DNA of 64,000 nucleotides, taken from assembly GCA_025782575.1 (NCBI GenBank), contig JALGYY010000009.1, positions 1 through 64,000 on the forward strand, in the 5' to 3' direction. Shown one piece after another: positions 49,284-54,986 of this stretch. A model generated the notes under the pieces. The model saw only the letters and a program-made list of their open reading frames with translations. It was not told where the DNA came from and searched no databases. Position 1 is the stretch's first letter. Every line of letters begins with the position of its first letter. The stretch comes from a bacterium (GTDB taxonomy: Bacteria > Orphanbacterota > Orphanbacteria > Orphanbacterales > Orphanbacteraceae). A program made the translations under genes and the position numbers.

Positions 49284-49435
49284 TCACCGCGGATCACGAT
49301 TGATGGCGGCCCACTTAACGTTGCATATCAGGCCTGCGGGTATTATTATTGAGTTTGTGCACCATTAGCCTTCCGGGTCTCCGTGCGGCATAGTGTCGCG
49401 CCTTCCCCCCGGCCCAGGAGCAACGGAGGGATGTC

Positions 49436-50527
49436 ATGACACACCTGCGCCGCCGTCCGTGGCAGATTACCGCTTTTTTTCTACTCTTTCTCGGTGCTCC
49501 GGGGATGTTCAATCCGGCCCATGGTGCGGATCGCATTGTGGTCGTCGAGCATTGGAGCAACGTACTCTGAAGCGTCTGCGGCTCGGTGGATCCGAGCCTC
49601 AAGAATTGGGTCTTCTCCAAGACTGATGTTGTCTGCGTGGAATACCATATTCCGGCGCCCTACCCTGCGGACCTGTTTTATATCCTGAATGCACCGGCCC
49701 AAGACTATCGTGCCGACTACTATAATGTCCTGTCCGCTCCCAAGATAAAGTTTGACGGGCCCGGAAATCCCGGATTCGATTCCATCGCATGGGAAGCCAG
49801 GTACGCGGCCCATAAGGCGGAAGGGTCGGACGCACAGATCGAGATCGAAGCGGACTATGTCCCGTCGAAAACGGGAGCGGGGTCCGGCGTTGTGAGCACG
49901 ATGATCATTGCCGAAGCCTCGATTCCGGGCGACTGGCGCTTTCGACTCGTAGTAACAGAGAGTGATGTGGACACGCTCATTCCGGGTGGAAATGGGATCA
50001 ATCCCCATCATCACATCTTTCGCGAGTTTCTACCCGATACGCTGGGAACCGTGGTCAGTTTTCCCGGGCCCTACCCCGACACGGTAATCGTCAATCTCCC
50101 CTTCACGGTCGAGCCGGACTGGGTTGATTCCAACGTGGCGTTCGTCGGGTTTCTTCAGAATGAAACGACGAAAGTGATCGAGCAAGGTGGGGAGAGAAGG
50201 CTGAGAGATGTCTTCGTCGGGATCGAGGAAGGGGTGCCGTCGCTACAGACCGATCGCCTCGATCCGGTCCGTCCCAACCCGTTCAATCCGGTGGCGGCGA
50301 TTTCGTTCAATCTCGCGAAAGTAAGAAACGCCCGCGTAGTCGTCTTTGATGCGGCGGGGAGACGTGTGGCTGTTCTGCTCGACGAGCGTCTCCCGGCAGG
50401 AAACCACGAAGTCATATGGTTCGGCGAGACTTCCGGCGGCAACCAGGCACCTTCAGGAACCTATTTCGTGAGGCTGGAGAACCGGGAAGGTCCACCACTT
50501 GTCCGAAAAGCCGTTCTGATTCGATAG
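49436..50527 (+). CDS. candidate selenoprotein: secreted Omp28/thioredoxin-like protein with FlgD-like sorting domain
   Basis: Read through one in-frame TGA (49568-49570) this is a 363-residue protein. GGAGG (49425-49429) sits 6 bases before ATG 49436. Residues 1-30 are a signal peptide (ITAFFLLFLGAPGMFNPAHG, cleavage near AHG-AD). RIVVVEHWSNVL-U45-SVC48 follows: the TGA takes the place of the first Cys in the CxxC of Omp28-type thioredoxin-like proteins (family style: VLxEEFTNTxCxxC). Downstream, DVVCVEYHIPAPYPADLFYI and YYNVLSAPKIKFDGPG continue the fold in the same frame. The C-terminus (about 275-363) is a FlgD-like sorting domain (RPNPFNPVAAISFNLA to FVRLENR). A SECIS-like hairpin follows the TGA. 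If TGA were stop, a 44-residue peptide and a signal-less protein from GTG 49586 would result. Alternative: a nonsense mutation. Confidence 0.8.
49580..49598 (+). promoter_or_regulatory. SECIS-like hairpin for UGA decoding as selenocysteine
   Basis: GGCTCGG (49580-49586) pairs perfectly with CCGAGCC (49592-49598) around the loop TGGAT. The loop begins 17 bases after the TGA, within the roughly 16-37 base window of bacterial SECIS elements, and has G among its first two bases, as the consensus requires. Confidence 0.7.
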
Positions 50528-50570: not shown

Positions 50571-50597
50571 CCCTGGCGGGACCGCTTACCGCCGGGG
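50571..50597. terminator. hairpin between convergent operons
   Basis: CCCTGGCGG (50571-50579) and CCGCCGGGG (50589-50597) form a 9-base stem with one G-T pair, followed rightward by CTTCTTCTT. It may end the selenoprotein transcript. It overlaps the last codons of the small Cys-rich gene on the other strand. Confidence 0.35.
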
Positions 50598-50795
50598 CTT
50601 CTTCTTGCAGGATGCGGACGTGCTCAGTCGATCTTTCAAGAATGCGTCATCAGATGCGAGAGGGTTTCCGCCGCAACCACAATGACCTTCCACGCCCGGC
50701 GGCCCGGGATCCTTGCCGGCGATCCACTTCTGGAAGAGCACCCAGGCGCCGCAGAGAAACGCCACGCCGCCCACCGCGATCAGATGCCTGATCAT
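50586..50795 (-). CDS. small Cys-rich membrane protein at end of rnf operon
   Basis: A 69-residue protein whose ATG overlaps the rnfA stop (ATGA). One membrane helix (LIAVGGVAFLCGAWVLF) is followed by HCGCGG and a later Cys near a basic tail. Position and layout (one helix plus a Cys cluster at the end of an Rnf/Nqr-type operon) parallel NqrM, the small protein needed for iron-site assembly in Na+-NQR, although the sequence is not clearly homologous. A maturation or electron-transfer role in the Rnf complex is a reasonable guess. Confidence 0.6.
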   Translation of the reverse strand: MIRHLIAVGGVAFLCGAWVLFQKWIAGKDPGPPGVEGHCGCGGNPLASDDAFLKDRLSTSASCKKKPRR

Positions 50796-51370
50796 GTGCT
50801 GCTGAACAGGCCGGCAAAACCCATGAAGGCCATGGAGAGTATGCCGGCGATTATGAGGTTCATGGCCGTCCCTTTTACGGCGGCGGGGATGTCGGAGAGC
50901 TCAGCTTCTACTCTTAGTCCCGCCATCAGGACGAGTGCGAGAGTGAGTCCTGCACCGGCGCCGACCGCGAAAAAAATCCCCTCGACGAATGAGTAGGCCC
51001 GGTTGGTCTGGAAAAGGGCGAGGCCTAGAATGGCGCAGTTCGTCGTAATCAGAGGCAGGAAAATGCCGAGTGCCCTGAAGAGCGCCGGACTCAGTTTTTT
51101 GATTACCATCTCGACAAACTGCACCGTGCTCGCAATCACGACGATAAAGCTGATGAGCTGCAGATAAGGTGCATGGGGCAACACGAATGTGTTCAGTACC
51201 CAGGCGCATGTCGATGTGATGAGAAGCACGAACAGATTAGCGAGGCCAAGCCGAAATGCCGTATCAATCCGGCCCGAAACACCGAAGAAAGGACAGAGTC
51301 CCAGAAAATAGTAAAGGGTGAAATTGTTGATCACCATGGCGCTGATAAAAATCCAGACGAGTTGATTCAT
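50792..51370 (-). CDS. rnfA: Rnf complex subunit RnfA
   Basis: A 192-residue, six-helix inner-membrane subunit homologous to NqrE and RnfE. Typical N-terminus: FISAMVINNFTLYYFLGLCP. The conserved Cys here and in a later helix (TTNCAILGLALF) help bind the intramembrane iron-sulfur centre shared by RnfA and RnfE. Overlaps rnfE by one base. Part of the ferredoxin:NAD-type ion-pumping complex. Confidence 0.95.
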   Translation of the reverse strand: MNQLVWIFISAMVINNFTLYYFLGLCPFFGVSGRIDTAFRLGLANLFVLLITSTCAWVLNTFVLPHAPYLQLISFIVVIASTVQFVEMVIKKLSPALFRALGIFLPLITTNCAILGLALFQTNRAYSFVEGIFFAVGAGAGLTLALVLMAGLRVEAELSDIPAAVKGTAMNLIIAGILSMAFMGFAGLFSST

Positions 51371-52011
51371 CAGGCGGCCTTTCTGGCAGTCTCACTCGGG
51401 CGTTTGGCCCGGGCCTGTTTGATGGCGCCGAAGAGGAGCAGGATGAGACCGAGCATGATGAAGCCGCCGGGGGGAAGTACCATGATCACCCACGGTTCAT
51501 AGTTCGGGCCGAAGAGCGGGAAGCCGAAGAACGATCCATTGCCGACGATCTCCCTGGCGCTCCCAAGGCAGAATAGTGCGAACAAGAATCCGGCAGACAT
51601 TCCCATTGCATCTGCCAGCGCCATTCCGACCGTGTTTCTGGATGCAAAAGCTTCCTGGCGGCCGAGGATCAGGCAGTTGACGACGATCAGAGAAATAAAC
51701 GCGCCGAGTTCTTTGTGGAGCGCCGGCGCGAACGCTTTCAGTGTGAAGTCCGCCAGCGTTACGAACGTGGCGATCACGATAATATAAGTGGAAATCCGGA
51801 CCTGTTTGGGGATCACGTTCCGGAGGAGGGAGATCAGCAGACTGGAGCCGAGCAGGACGAACATCGTCGCCCCACCCATGGCGAGGGCGTTGATGGCGCT
51901 GTTCGTGACCGCCAGCATGGGGCACATTCCGAGCACCTGGACAAAAACAGGATTCTCTTTCCAGAGGCCCTTGGCAAATTCGGCGTAGGCTTGTGAACTA
52001 TCCTTCGCCAA
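51370..52011 (-). CDS. rnfE: Rnf complex subunit RnfE
   Basis: A 213-residue, six-helix subunit related to NqrD. The family start NPVFVQVLGMCPMLAVTNSA and the later LIVVNCLILGRQEAFAS carry the two Cys of the membrane iron-sulfur site. TTG start, placed just after the rnfG stop (TGAGTTG), with GGGAGG upstream. Confidence 0.94.
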   Translation of the reverse strand: MAKDSSQAYAEFAKGLWKENPVFVQVLGMCPMLAVTNSAINALAMGGATMFVLLGSSLLISLLRNVIPKQVRISTYIIVIATFVTLADFTLKAFAPALHKELGAFISLIVVNCLILGRQEAFASRNTVGMALADAMGMSAGFLFALFCLGSAREIVGNGSFFGFPLFGPNYEPWVIMVLPPGGFIMLGLILLLFGAIKQARAKRPSETARKAA

Positions 52012-52012
52012 C

Positions 52013-52636
52013 TCAACCTCCCTCGATCAGCGGGAGCCATTCCCGGCTCGCTTCATTGATGATCTTGACTACGGCGCGGGATGAAATCGTCGCTCCCGTG
52101 ATGGCGTCTACTTCGTTCGGCGCGGCACCGGTTCCATTCGGTACGAGCACGACCTCCGGTTTCGCGGCGAGTTCACGAAATTCGGCTACGAAATCGGCGT
52201 CTTTGAAAATCTTGTCACCCAGTCCCGGCGTCTCCCGGCTCTCCAGAATCTGCATGCCCGTCAGATTGCCTGACTTGGGATCGTAGCCGAACAGCAGATC
52301 GATGAAATCCTGAAACCCGATCCCTCTTCCCGGAATCGCATAGCCGATAATCTCACCCGACTCGTTTGTTGCGGCATAGATGCCCGCTTCTTCGCTCTCT
52401 TCGGGCGCTTCGGTAAGCCGGTCGTTTGAAACGACCATTCTTTTCATGTCCGCCGCCCCTGGAACGACTTCGAAGACCGCCCGGCGAAGTGCCCGGCGCT
52501 GATTCTCTTTGATTCGGGGGAGGGTCGCTTCATAGACGGCTGCCAATGCGAGCCCGGAAAGCAGGCCGGCGAGCGTGAGGGTAAGCACCATCTTAACGAG
52601 GCTCACATCCGCCTGCTTCGGAACCGGCCGGCTCAT
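52013..52636 (-). CDS. rnfG: Rnf complex subunit RnfG (covalent FMN)
   Basis: A 207-residue protein with an N-terminal anchor helix (MVLTLTLAGLLSGLALAAVY) and a periplasm-facing FMN-binding domain. The flavinylation motif VDAITGATISS (about residue 180) supplies the Thr that takes FMN covalently through ApbE. ETPGLGDKI is also typical. ATG overlaps the rnfD stop by 4 bases. Confidence 0.94.
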   Translation of the reverse strand: MSRPVPKQADVSLVKMVLTLTLAGLLSGLALAAVYEATLPRIKENQRRALRRAVFEVVPGAADMKRMVVSNDRLTEAPEESEEAGIYAATNESGEIIGYAIPGRGIGFQDFIDLLFGYDPKSGNLTGMQILESRETPGLGDKIFKDADFVAEFRELAAKPEVVLVPNGTGAAPNEVDAITGATISSRAVVKIINEASREWLPLIEGG

Positions 52637-53655
52637 GATTTCTCCCTGCGTGGTCTGCCGAAGACGCGGGGTTGCACCGCTTTATCAATGAGAGGCGTGG
52701 CGGCATTCATGAGAAGAATCGAATACATCACCCCTTCCGGGAAGCCGCCGAAAACGCGGATCAGTACGACCAGAAAACCGATACCGGCACCGAAGATCCA
52801 CGCTCCCCGCGGACTTAGTGGAGAGGTGACCGGATCGGTCGCCATGAAGACCGCCCCGAGCAGGAGGCCGCCCGACAGAATCATGAAGTGGGGCGGGGGG
52901 TAGGCGCTCGGGCTGACGAGATAAAGAATTCCGGCGAAAGCGGCTGTCGAAGCGAGGATCGCTACGGGAATTCTCCAGTCATATGTTCGCCTGAGGCCGA
53001 GCCAGAGACCGGCGAAGATCAGAATCAGTGCACTCGTTTCGCCGAGAGACCCGCCTGTGCTCCCGAACAGCAGATTCTGGAACGGCGTCGATTCTCCTGA
53101 GAATTTCATGAGCGCCAGCGGCGTTGCCGATGAGACGGCGTCCACGTCCATGTGCATGAACGGGGCGGCGAGAGTAGCCCCCCGTACCTGAAAGAACTGG
53201 CCGATTCCACCATAGGGAGCCCAGGTGGTGAGAGCGGTCGGGAAAGCCGCCTGAAGAAACGCCCGTCCGACGAGCGCGGGATTAAACAGGTTGTGGCCGA
53301 GTCCGCCCCAGACGAGTTTCCCGAGGCCCATTCCGACCAGACCGCCGACGACCGCCATCCAGAGAGGGAGACCGGGCGGGAGTGTGAGGCCGAGAAGCAC
53401 ACCCGTGAGCGCGGCGCTGCCATCCTTCAGTGAATGGCCCCGCTTGCCGTAGGGGGGAAAGAGCCACTCGGTACCCATGGCACCCGCCGTAGCCGCGGCG
53501 ATCACCAGAATGGCGCTCACGCCGAAGTACCAGACTGCTGCGAGTACGACGGGCGCCAGACCGAGAAGCACATCCCGCATCAATTTAGATGTAGTCAGTT
53601 CCCGGCGCAGAAAAGGCGCCGCCTCGAGAATAAGACCCGGTTCCCGTCCGATCAT
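52633..53655 (-). CDS. rnfD: Rnf complex subunit RnfD (covalent FMN)
   Basis: A 340-residue membrane subunit related to NqrB. VDAVSSATPLALMKFSGE near residue 175 holds the Thr for a second covalent FMN. GLGHNLFNPALVGRAFLQAA and FMATDPVTSPLSPRGAWIFG are family signatures. Overlaps rnfC by 4 bases. Together with RnfG it carries electrons coupled to ion pumping. Confidence 0.94.
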   Translation of the reverse strand: MIGREPGLILEAAPFLRRELTTSKLMRDVLLGLAPVVLAAVWYFGVSAILVIAAATAGAMGTEWLFPPYGKRGHSLKDGSAALTGVLLGLTLPPGLPLWMAVVGGLVGMGLGKLVWGGLGHNLFNPALVGRAFLQAAFPTALTTWAPYGGIGQFFQVRGATLAAPFMHMDVDAVSSATPLALMKFSGESTPFQNLLFGSTGGSLGETSALILIFAGLWLGLRRTYDWRIPVAILASTAAFAGILYLVSPSAYPPPHFMILSGGLLLGAVFMATDPVTSPLSPRGAWIFGAGIGFLVVLIRVFGGFPEGVMYSILLMNAATPLIDKAVQPRVFGRPRREKS

Positions 53656-54986
53656 TTCTTTCTGTTCTTCTTTCTAATAGCGGATTTGGCTACGCGGATG
53701 AGCTGCACGATCGGGATGTTTGACGGGCATGTGTACGTGCAGGATCCGCATTCAATACAATCCATTACAAAGTACTCTTCGATTTCGTCCCATCGCTCGG
53801 CGTGCGCCAGTCTTCCGAAACGGGACGGATTCAAGAACGCCGGGCACGCCTCGAGGCACCGGCTGCATTTCACGCATGTGAATTCGGGGAGCCTGGATTG
53901 CTCCGCTTTCGTGAATACCAGAAGGCCGCTCGTCCCTTTAAGAACCGGTACGTCGATACTCATGAGGGGGAGGCCCATCATCGGGCCGCCGGCGATCACT
54001 TCACGCATGTGTTCCGTTATTGCTTCGCAGTGACTGAGCAAGGCCCGGATCGGCGTACCGATCGGGACGAGCAGATTGGCCGGCTGGCCGGTACCGGGGC
54101 CCGAGACCGTAACGATCCGCTCGATAAGCGGAATGCCGTGATCGAAGTAGTCGGCGATCGCCGCCATCGTCGCGACGTTGTTTACGATTACCCCGACATC
54201 GAGGGGGAGTTTGCCAGAGGGGACTTCGAGATCGAAGAGCGCCTTGATGAGCATTTTTTCAGCACCTTGCGGATACTTGACGCGAAGAGGGGCGACCTCG
54301 ATGTCTGTCCGGTCGCCGATCACTTTCTGGAGCGCCTTCACACCATCGGGCTTGTTCTTCTCCACCCCGATCACGGTCTTCGTCGCCCCGATCTTGGCTG
54401 CGAGAATTTCGGAGCCTCTCACAACACGCGCCGCCTCTTCGACCATCAGGCGGTGATCGGCTGTCAGGAAGGGTTCACACTCACATCCGTTAACGACGAG
54501 AGTCTCGATCTTCTTTCCGTCCGGCAATTTATATTTGACATGTGATGGGAAAGCCGCACCGCCCATCCCGACGAGCCCCGCCTCCTGCACGTGGGTGACG
54601 AACTCATCGATCGTGAGCGATTCCCAGTCGATCGGTGGCTGGTCGGGGAGGAGCTGGGGATCGTACGGATCGGCATCGATCACGATCGACTCGAGCATCC
54701 TGCCGTCCGGATGACGGCGTGGTTCGATCGCACGTACTGTTCCCGTCACCGGACTGTGAAGCGCGGTCGAAACATATCCTCCCGGCCGGGCGATCTTCTG
54801 ACCCCGGCGGACCGCCTCTCCCTTTCGCACGATCGATTGGGAAGGCGCCCCCAGATTCTGGCTGAGCGGGAGTACATAAGTCGCCACGAACGGTACGCGC
54901 TCGATTCGGAGCTCCGCAGTCTGTTCTTTATGATCGTCGGGATGGATCCCGTGTCGAAAACTGTTCGATCGAATCGTCAGACTCAA
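53652..54986 (-). CDS. rnfC: Rnf complex subunit RnfC
   Basis: A 444-residue membrane-associated subunit related to NqrF/Nuo51. Biotinyl-like N-terminal region (ALHSPVTGTVRAIE), Nuo51-like FMN/NADH-binding fold with GLVGMGGAAFPSHVKYKL and NGCECEPFLTADHRLM, SLBB segment, and two 4Fe-4S motifs: CVKCSRCLEACP (about 368) and CIECGSCTYTCP (about 407). It is the NAD(H) site of the complex. Overlaps the PFOR-like stop by 4 bases. Confidence 0.95.
   Translation of the reverse strand: MSLTIRSNSFRHGIHPDDHKEQTAELRIERVPFVATYVLPLSQNLGAPSQSIVRKGEAVRRGQKIARPGGYVSTALHSPVTGTVRAIEPRRHPDGRMLESIVIDADPYDPQLLPDQPPIDWESLTIDEFVTHVQEAGLVGMGGAAFPSHVKYKLPDGKKIETLVVNGCECEPFLTADHRLMVEEAARVVRGSEILAAKIGATKTVIGVEKNKPDGVKALQKVIGDRTDIEVAPLRVKYPQGAEKMLIKALFDLEVPSGKLPLDVGVIVNNVATMAAIADYFDHGIPLIERIVTVSGPGTGQPANLLVPIGTPIRALLSHCEAITEHMREVIAGGPMMGLPLMSIDVPVLKGTSGLLVFTKAEQSRLPEFTCVKCSRCLEACPAFLNPSRFGRLAHAERWDEIEEYFVMDCIECGSCTYTCPSNIPIVQLIRVAKSAIRKKNRKK

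Follow-up and report, generated by a model that had tools for sequence, protein, structure and literature searches.

The gene at positions 49,436 to 50,527 of the window (the whole 64,000-nucleotide stretch of DNA analysed here) belongs to an uncultivated relative of Candidatus Eisenbacteria and has a UGA at codon 45 that, from sequence comparison, is very probably read as selenocysteine (Sec) at the active site of a thioredoxin-like, exported protein with a sorting tail. The whole explanation, in which we place high confidence, is that of an exported selenoprotein with a SECIS-directed Sec45, which would be delivered by a T9SS-type route and would carry out thiol-disulfide exchange. The open frame, the exchange of TGA with Cys codons, the SECIS-like element, the Sec machinery, the fold and the SprA gene were all computed directly, and from these we infer the insertion of Sec in the cell, the secretion route, the redox chemistry and the substrate. 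Most likely, the product is an exported Sec-dependent thiol-disulfide oxidoreductase that would be delivered to the surface or released.

A reading frame with a single internal TGA

When TGA was translated as Sec, the frame ran from ATG to TAG, with the TGA at codon 45 as its sole internal stop (Table 1). An earlier reading of the sequence alone (the sequence-only reading) had proposed that this TGA occupies the place of the first Cys of a CxxC motif, and both the translation and the aligned column of homologues bore this out. Where it had described a ribosome binding site, ATG and signal peptide upstream, there are an RBS-like GGAGGG, the ATG and a signal-peptide-like start, MTHLRRRPWQITAFFLLFLGAPGMFNPAHG-AD as read by eye.

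Table 1. Features of the selenoprotein gene and its surroundings, in window coordinates.
Feature	Position	Strand	Basis
Shine-Dalgarno-like GGAGGG region	49424..49430	+	Sequence; GGAGGG 5 nt before the ATG
Probable selenoprotein gene, 363 aa, Sec at 45 (UxxC)	49436..50527	+	Translation, homologues
Signal-peptide-like N-terminus (RRR, hydrophobic core, AHG-A)	49436..49525	+	Read by eye from the translation
Thioredoxin-fold domain, U45-S-V-C48 and conserved Pro	49526..49780	+	AF2 model, alignment A1, Foldseek to HBP35
UGA codon probably read as selenocysteine (U45)	49568..49570	+	TGA or TGC/TGT in 75/75 homologues
Putative bacterial SECIS apical stem-loop GGCUCGG-UGGAU-CCGAGCC	49580..49598	+	Folding, synonymous shuffles, rules of PMC13188914
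Omp28-like region (PF11551 / NF045500 match), beta-sandwich in C-terminal half	49640..50221	+	Profile matches, AF2 model
C-terminal FlgD_ig / T9SS type A sorting-like domain (PNPFNP...)	50273..50524	+	PF13860, TIGR04183 scores

Codon 45 is TGA or a cysteine codon in every homologue

We searched 386 genomes, most of them from other families, and read the codon at the aligned position of every domain match; the phylum of the window organism was represented by only seven genomes. The U45 column of the 75 non-redundant homologues, which come from many lineages, contained TGA in 26 and TGC or TGT in 49, with no other codon; the search profile had Cys at this column and may slightly favour Cys or Sec rows, with about 240 other columns also contributing to the score. 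None of the 75 had a second TGA within the domain. The second Cys of the motif (C48) was invariant in alignment A1, and the conserved Pro of the thioredoxin-fold domain corresponds to the invariant P74 of the same alignment. When stops were read through, the full-length matches from the same family (L022-L026, L041 and L042) had exactly one TGA each, in the identical place. Thus only TGA or Cys was found at a position where the sequence-only reading had expected unrelated sense codons in close relatives if the TGA were a nonsense mutation. We take this comparison of aligned codons, with TGA or Cys in every homologue, to be decisive.

In the 75-member tree, the window protein fell into a three-member clade with an SH-aLRT support of 99, and parsimony required at least 13 Sec/Cys changes, counted on a quick tree with many unresolved forks. 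Named relatives include proteins of Candidatus Eisenbacteria OFTM309 (L068) and of metagenome-assembled genomes labelled Gemmatimonadetes (L069, L079). Cys paralogues (L044, L057) are present in the window's genome as well, which shows that the fold can do without Sec. A second Sec-Omp28 clade from the same phylum (L024, L025, L026, L041 and L042) groups with Cys paralogues and may represent an independent gain of Sec; its hairpin differs from that of the window gene, being longer and having its loop near +26/27. One further genome (G110) encodes four separate Omp28-type proteins with an active-site TGA (L084, L110 and L111, the last comprising two genes), in addition to two stop-free matches.

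A SECIS-like hairpin follows the TGA

The hairpin consists of GGCTCGG (49580-49586), the loop TGGAT (49587-49591) and CCGAGCC (49592-49598), giving a perfect 7-bp stem and a 5-nt loop exactly as had been claimed from the sequence alone. The UGA-to-loop spacing is 16 nt, G occupies loop position 2, and the predicted energy is -15.1 kcal/mol, all of which fall within the published rules for bacterial SECIS elements (loop 3-9 nt, stem 4-16 bp, G in the first two loop positions, spacing 16-37 nt, MFE <= -7.5; PMC13188914), so that by these rules the predicted element is present. In a search limited to SECIS-like hairpins, its stability exceeded that of about 98% of the versions of its own gene shuffled with synonymous codons (p ~0.02). 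The stability of an unconstrained 56-nt fold was not unusual (z = -0.88), and the window hairpin taken alone is therefore weak evidence. An Rfam scan of 49300-49900 returned no SECIS family, the only match being a chance one to a lncRNA.

Comparison between TGA and Cys members was more informative, although the rows are related and the p values consequently somewhat optimistic: the median energy of the best SECIS-like hairpin was -11.9 kcal/mol in TGA members vs -4.2 kcal/mol in Cys members (Mann-Whitney p = 3e-6), a stable hairpin with its loop starting at +16 to +20 was present in 16/26 TGA vs 3/49 Cys members (p = 3.5e-7), and synonymous shuffles gave a median p of 0.045 vs 0.73. Again among related rows, the hairpin exceeded its synonymous shuffles at p <= 0.05 in 14 of the 26 TGA members and 3 of the 49 Cys members. 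The same search among the 26 TGA members found no convincing hairpin in L026, L027, L032 and L101. At the third stem pair, the members of the window's own clade differ, with C-G in the window gene, U-A in L022 and A-U in L023; silent wobble changes in a Gly codon accompany the changes of a Ser/Asn/Val codon. This covariation is no more than suggestive, drawing as it does on three sequences, with 62 of 500 shuffles reaching the same score.

The genome encodes a complete Sec machinery

Absence of Sec machinery would have been the main refutation of the sequence-only reading, but all four components were found in the window's genome (4.88 Mb in 49 contigs, 95% complete): selA (524.6 bits), selB (378.6 bits), a tRNA-Sec (selC) with anticodon TCA (72.7 bits), and selD (379.1 bits). 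The selD gene (L018, G000:C46:271946-272869) is itself a selenoprotein gene, with an in-frame TGA in its GUxxK motif (...FATKAG-U-AAK...), the usual Sec motif of SelD. Across genomes, selA or tRNA-Sec was found in 18/19 that bear a TGA homologue vs 13/23 that have Cys homologues only (Fisher p = 0.005). Neither gene was found in G005, one of the three genomes of the window's clade, whose assembly is 82% complete and in 830 contigs.

The TGA/Cys-only column, the enrichment of hairpins after TGA and the occurrence of Sec machinery in 18 of 19 genomes argue for selenocysteine rather than a nonsense mutation, and the selenoprotein interpretation put forward from the sequence alone is upheld by the machinery, the column and the hairpin of the window gene together. 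In this model, SelB and tRNA-Sec(UCA) would decode the UGA at codon 45 as Sec, guided by the stem-loop 10-28 nt downstream.

Relationship to the known family GOS_C

The sequence-only reading had supposed that this was not a described family, which proved incorrect, as an Omp28-related UxxC family is on record. NF045500, named Omp28-related selenoprotein (Omp28_seleno) by NCBI, corresponds to the 'hypothetical protein GOS_C' with UxxC reported in 2008 (Zhang and Gladyshev, PMC2398784), and it is included among the 119 prokaryotic selenoprotein families and subfamilies of an AEM 2026 catalogue (PMC13188914, Table 1), where GOS_C, the single described relative, has no known function. The window protein shares with this family an Omp28-related thioredoxin fold with UxxC, and the profile aligns over its residues 28-262. 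However, its score was 32.3 bits, where the curated cut-off is 200, and the match ended at model position 274 of 377, leaving positions 275-377 unmatched; the model region 272-312 (a tandem repeat in G246) is replaced by the FlgD/T9SS-like tail. We regard the window protein as a divergent branch of the Omp28-related selenoproteins, and Sec in an Omp28-type thioredoxin protein was already known. No true NF045500 member was found above the cut-off in the 386 genomes and three phylum sets, which is why the 75-member tree contains none.

Matches to Omp28 itself were partial. PF11551 scored 25.4-26.7 bits (E 6e-6 to 1.5e-5; gathering 34.9), with better scores in other homologues (best E 8e-10), and the window protein fell under the curated cut-offs of both PF11551 and NF033782 (lipoprot_Omp28), from which it also differs in having Sec in place of Cys. 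Unlike lipoprot_Omp28, it had no lipobox Cys that we could see in its signal sequence. Sec-containing thioredoxins and DsbA/DsbG-like selenoproteins (PMC13188914, Table 1) share the thioredoxin fold and UxxC, but are separate families lacking an Omp28 or sorting domain. Among open-access papers, none was found that contained both 'selenoprotein' and 'Omp28', and full-text searching for 'selenoprotein' with 'type IX secretion' yielded only an unrelated feeding study, with no paper having both as its subject.

Fold, sorting-like tail and predicted activity

The AF2 model of the mature domain (pLDDT 90) begins with a thioredoxin fold and continues into a beta-domain. The top solved match in Foldseek was HBP35 of Porphyromonas gingivalis (PDB 5y1a; E 3.6e-12, TMq 0.75, 266 columns), and the next was Omp28. 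HBP35 has the same succession of thioredoxin domain, Omp28-like domain and C-terminal sorting domain, but has Cys where the window protein has Sec, and the two are 12% identical.

The FlgD-like domain that had been predicted downstream of the TGA was confirmed by PF13860 (FlgD_ig; 31.7 bits, gathering 27), whereas the same tail scored 21.3 bits against TIGR04183 (T9SS type A; cut-off 23) and did not pass PF18962. These scores, together with the abundance of FlgD-like tails in the window's genome, speak for a protein that belongs to this Sec family but is periplasmic or anchored in the outer membrane, its tail serving as a structural Ig domain and not marking T9SS cargo. We consider this arrangement possible but somewhat doubtful, as the tail starts with PNPFNP, a motif commonly seen in T9SS type A tails, and a SprA homologue is present in the genome (a single open frame scoring 525.4 bits in sum; cut-off 200). 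Also weighing against a periplasmic or anchored protein is HBP35, the nearest fold, which leaves the cell through the Por/type IX system and is proven T9SS cargo (PMC3120885).

In vitro, HBP35 acts as a thioredoxin, an activity that requires the two Cys of its active site, and it also binds hemin (PMC2907840). By analogy with what has been proposed for HBP35, the main role of the window protein might be to bind a ligand (haem or metal) or substrate, with Sec as a secondary sensor or peroxide-reactive site; we regard this as unlikely, in view of the retention of the UxxC/CxxC pair in all homologues despite very divergent sequence.

In the oxidoreductase model that we prefer, the signal peptide would direct export, and the FlgD/T9SS-like tail and the SprA gene suggest subsequent delivery to the outer surface or release. 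U45-x-x-C48 of the thioredoxin fold would then act as a selenenylsulfide/thiol pair that carries out thiol-disulfide exchange with substrates exported by the cell, and the Omp28 beta-domain, judging from the homologous fold of HBP35, may provide a platform for substrate or ligand. A broader proposal, which we advance tentatively and hold to be slightly short of an even prospect, is that thioredoxin/Omp28 proteins that are secreted by a T9SS-type route or displayed on the surface have acquired and fixed Sec, perhaps in several independent events, across the sampled deep-branching lineages, so that bacteria place Sec chemistry extracellularly, and that the window protein stands for a Sec family of its own, apart from GOS_C, acting as an extracellular selenenyl oxidoreductase. 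The swapping of Sec and Cys in one exported fold, with at least 13 changes, allows Sec and Cys forms to be compared in nature for what Sec contributes outside the cell. Standard gene callers halt at TGA and would miscall such genes, with the result that exported active sites are missing from annotation.

The SprA-type T9SS translocon gene (G000:C21:304609-310431; L141, L142) lies outside the Bacteroidetes, in an Eisenbacteria-related genome with many FlgD_ig/T9SS-like tails.

Other explanations of the TGA codon

General reassignment of TGA or plain leaky readthrough, in place of SECIS-directed Sec insertion, has in its favour that UGA is the leakiest stop codon. We rejected this explanation as very improbable: TGA acts as a regular stop codon in the genome, terminating 8 of the 13 window ORFs checked and occurring in frame inside none of the other 12, the genome has a complete Sec system, and TGA is exchanged only with Cys codons. 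A pseudogene or sequencing error, in which a gene that is dying or has been misread acquired a chance TGA in place of a Cys codon, is scarcely credible, for although TGA is one base from TGC/TGT and the assembly is fragmented (49 contigs), the TGA is common to 26 homologues, including L022, L023, L024, L025, L026, L041 and L042 of the same family as well as unrelated lineages, is accompanied by a SECIS-like hairpin, and is followed by sequence that remains under purifying selection (dN 0.12, dS 0.68 between L022 and L023).

Gene neighbourhood

Apart from shared sorting tails, neighbouring genes were not conserved in G002, G005 or the other loci compared, and gene context therefore gives no clue to function. 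Just downstream of the selenoprotein gene, and convergent with it, is a set of Rnf electron-transport genes (50792-54986, minus strand) encoding two Rnf-Nqr membrane subunits, an FMN-binding protein, RnfD and RnfC, and these are followed by a Cys-containing ORF of 69 aa (50586-50795, minus strand).
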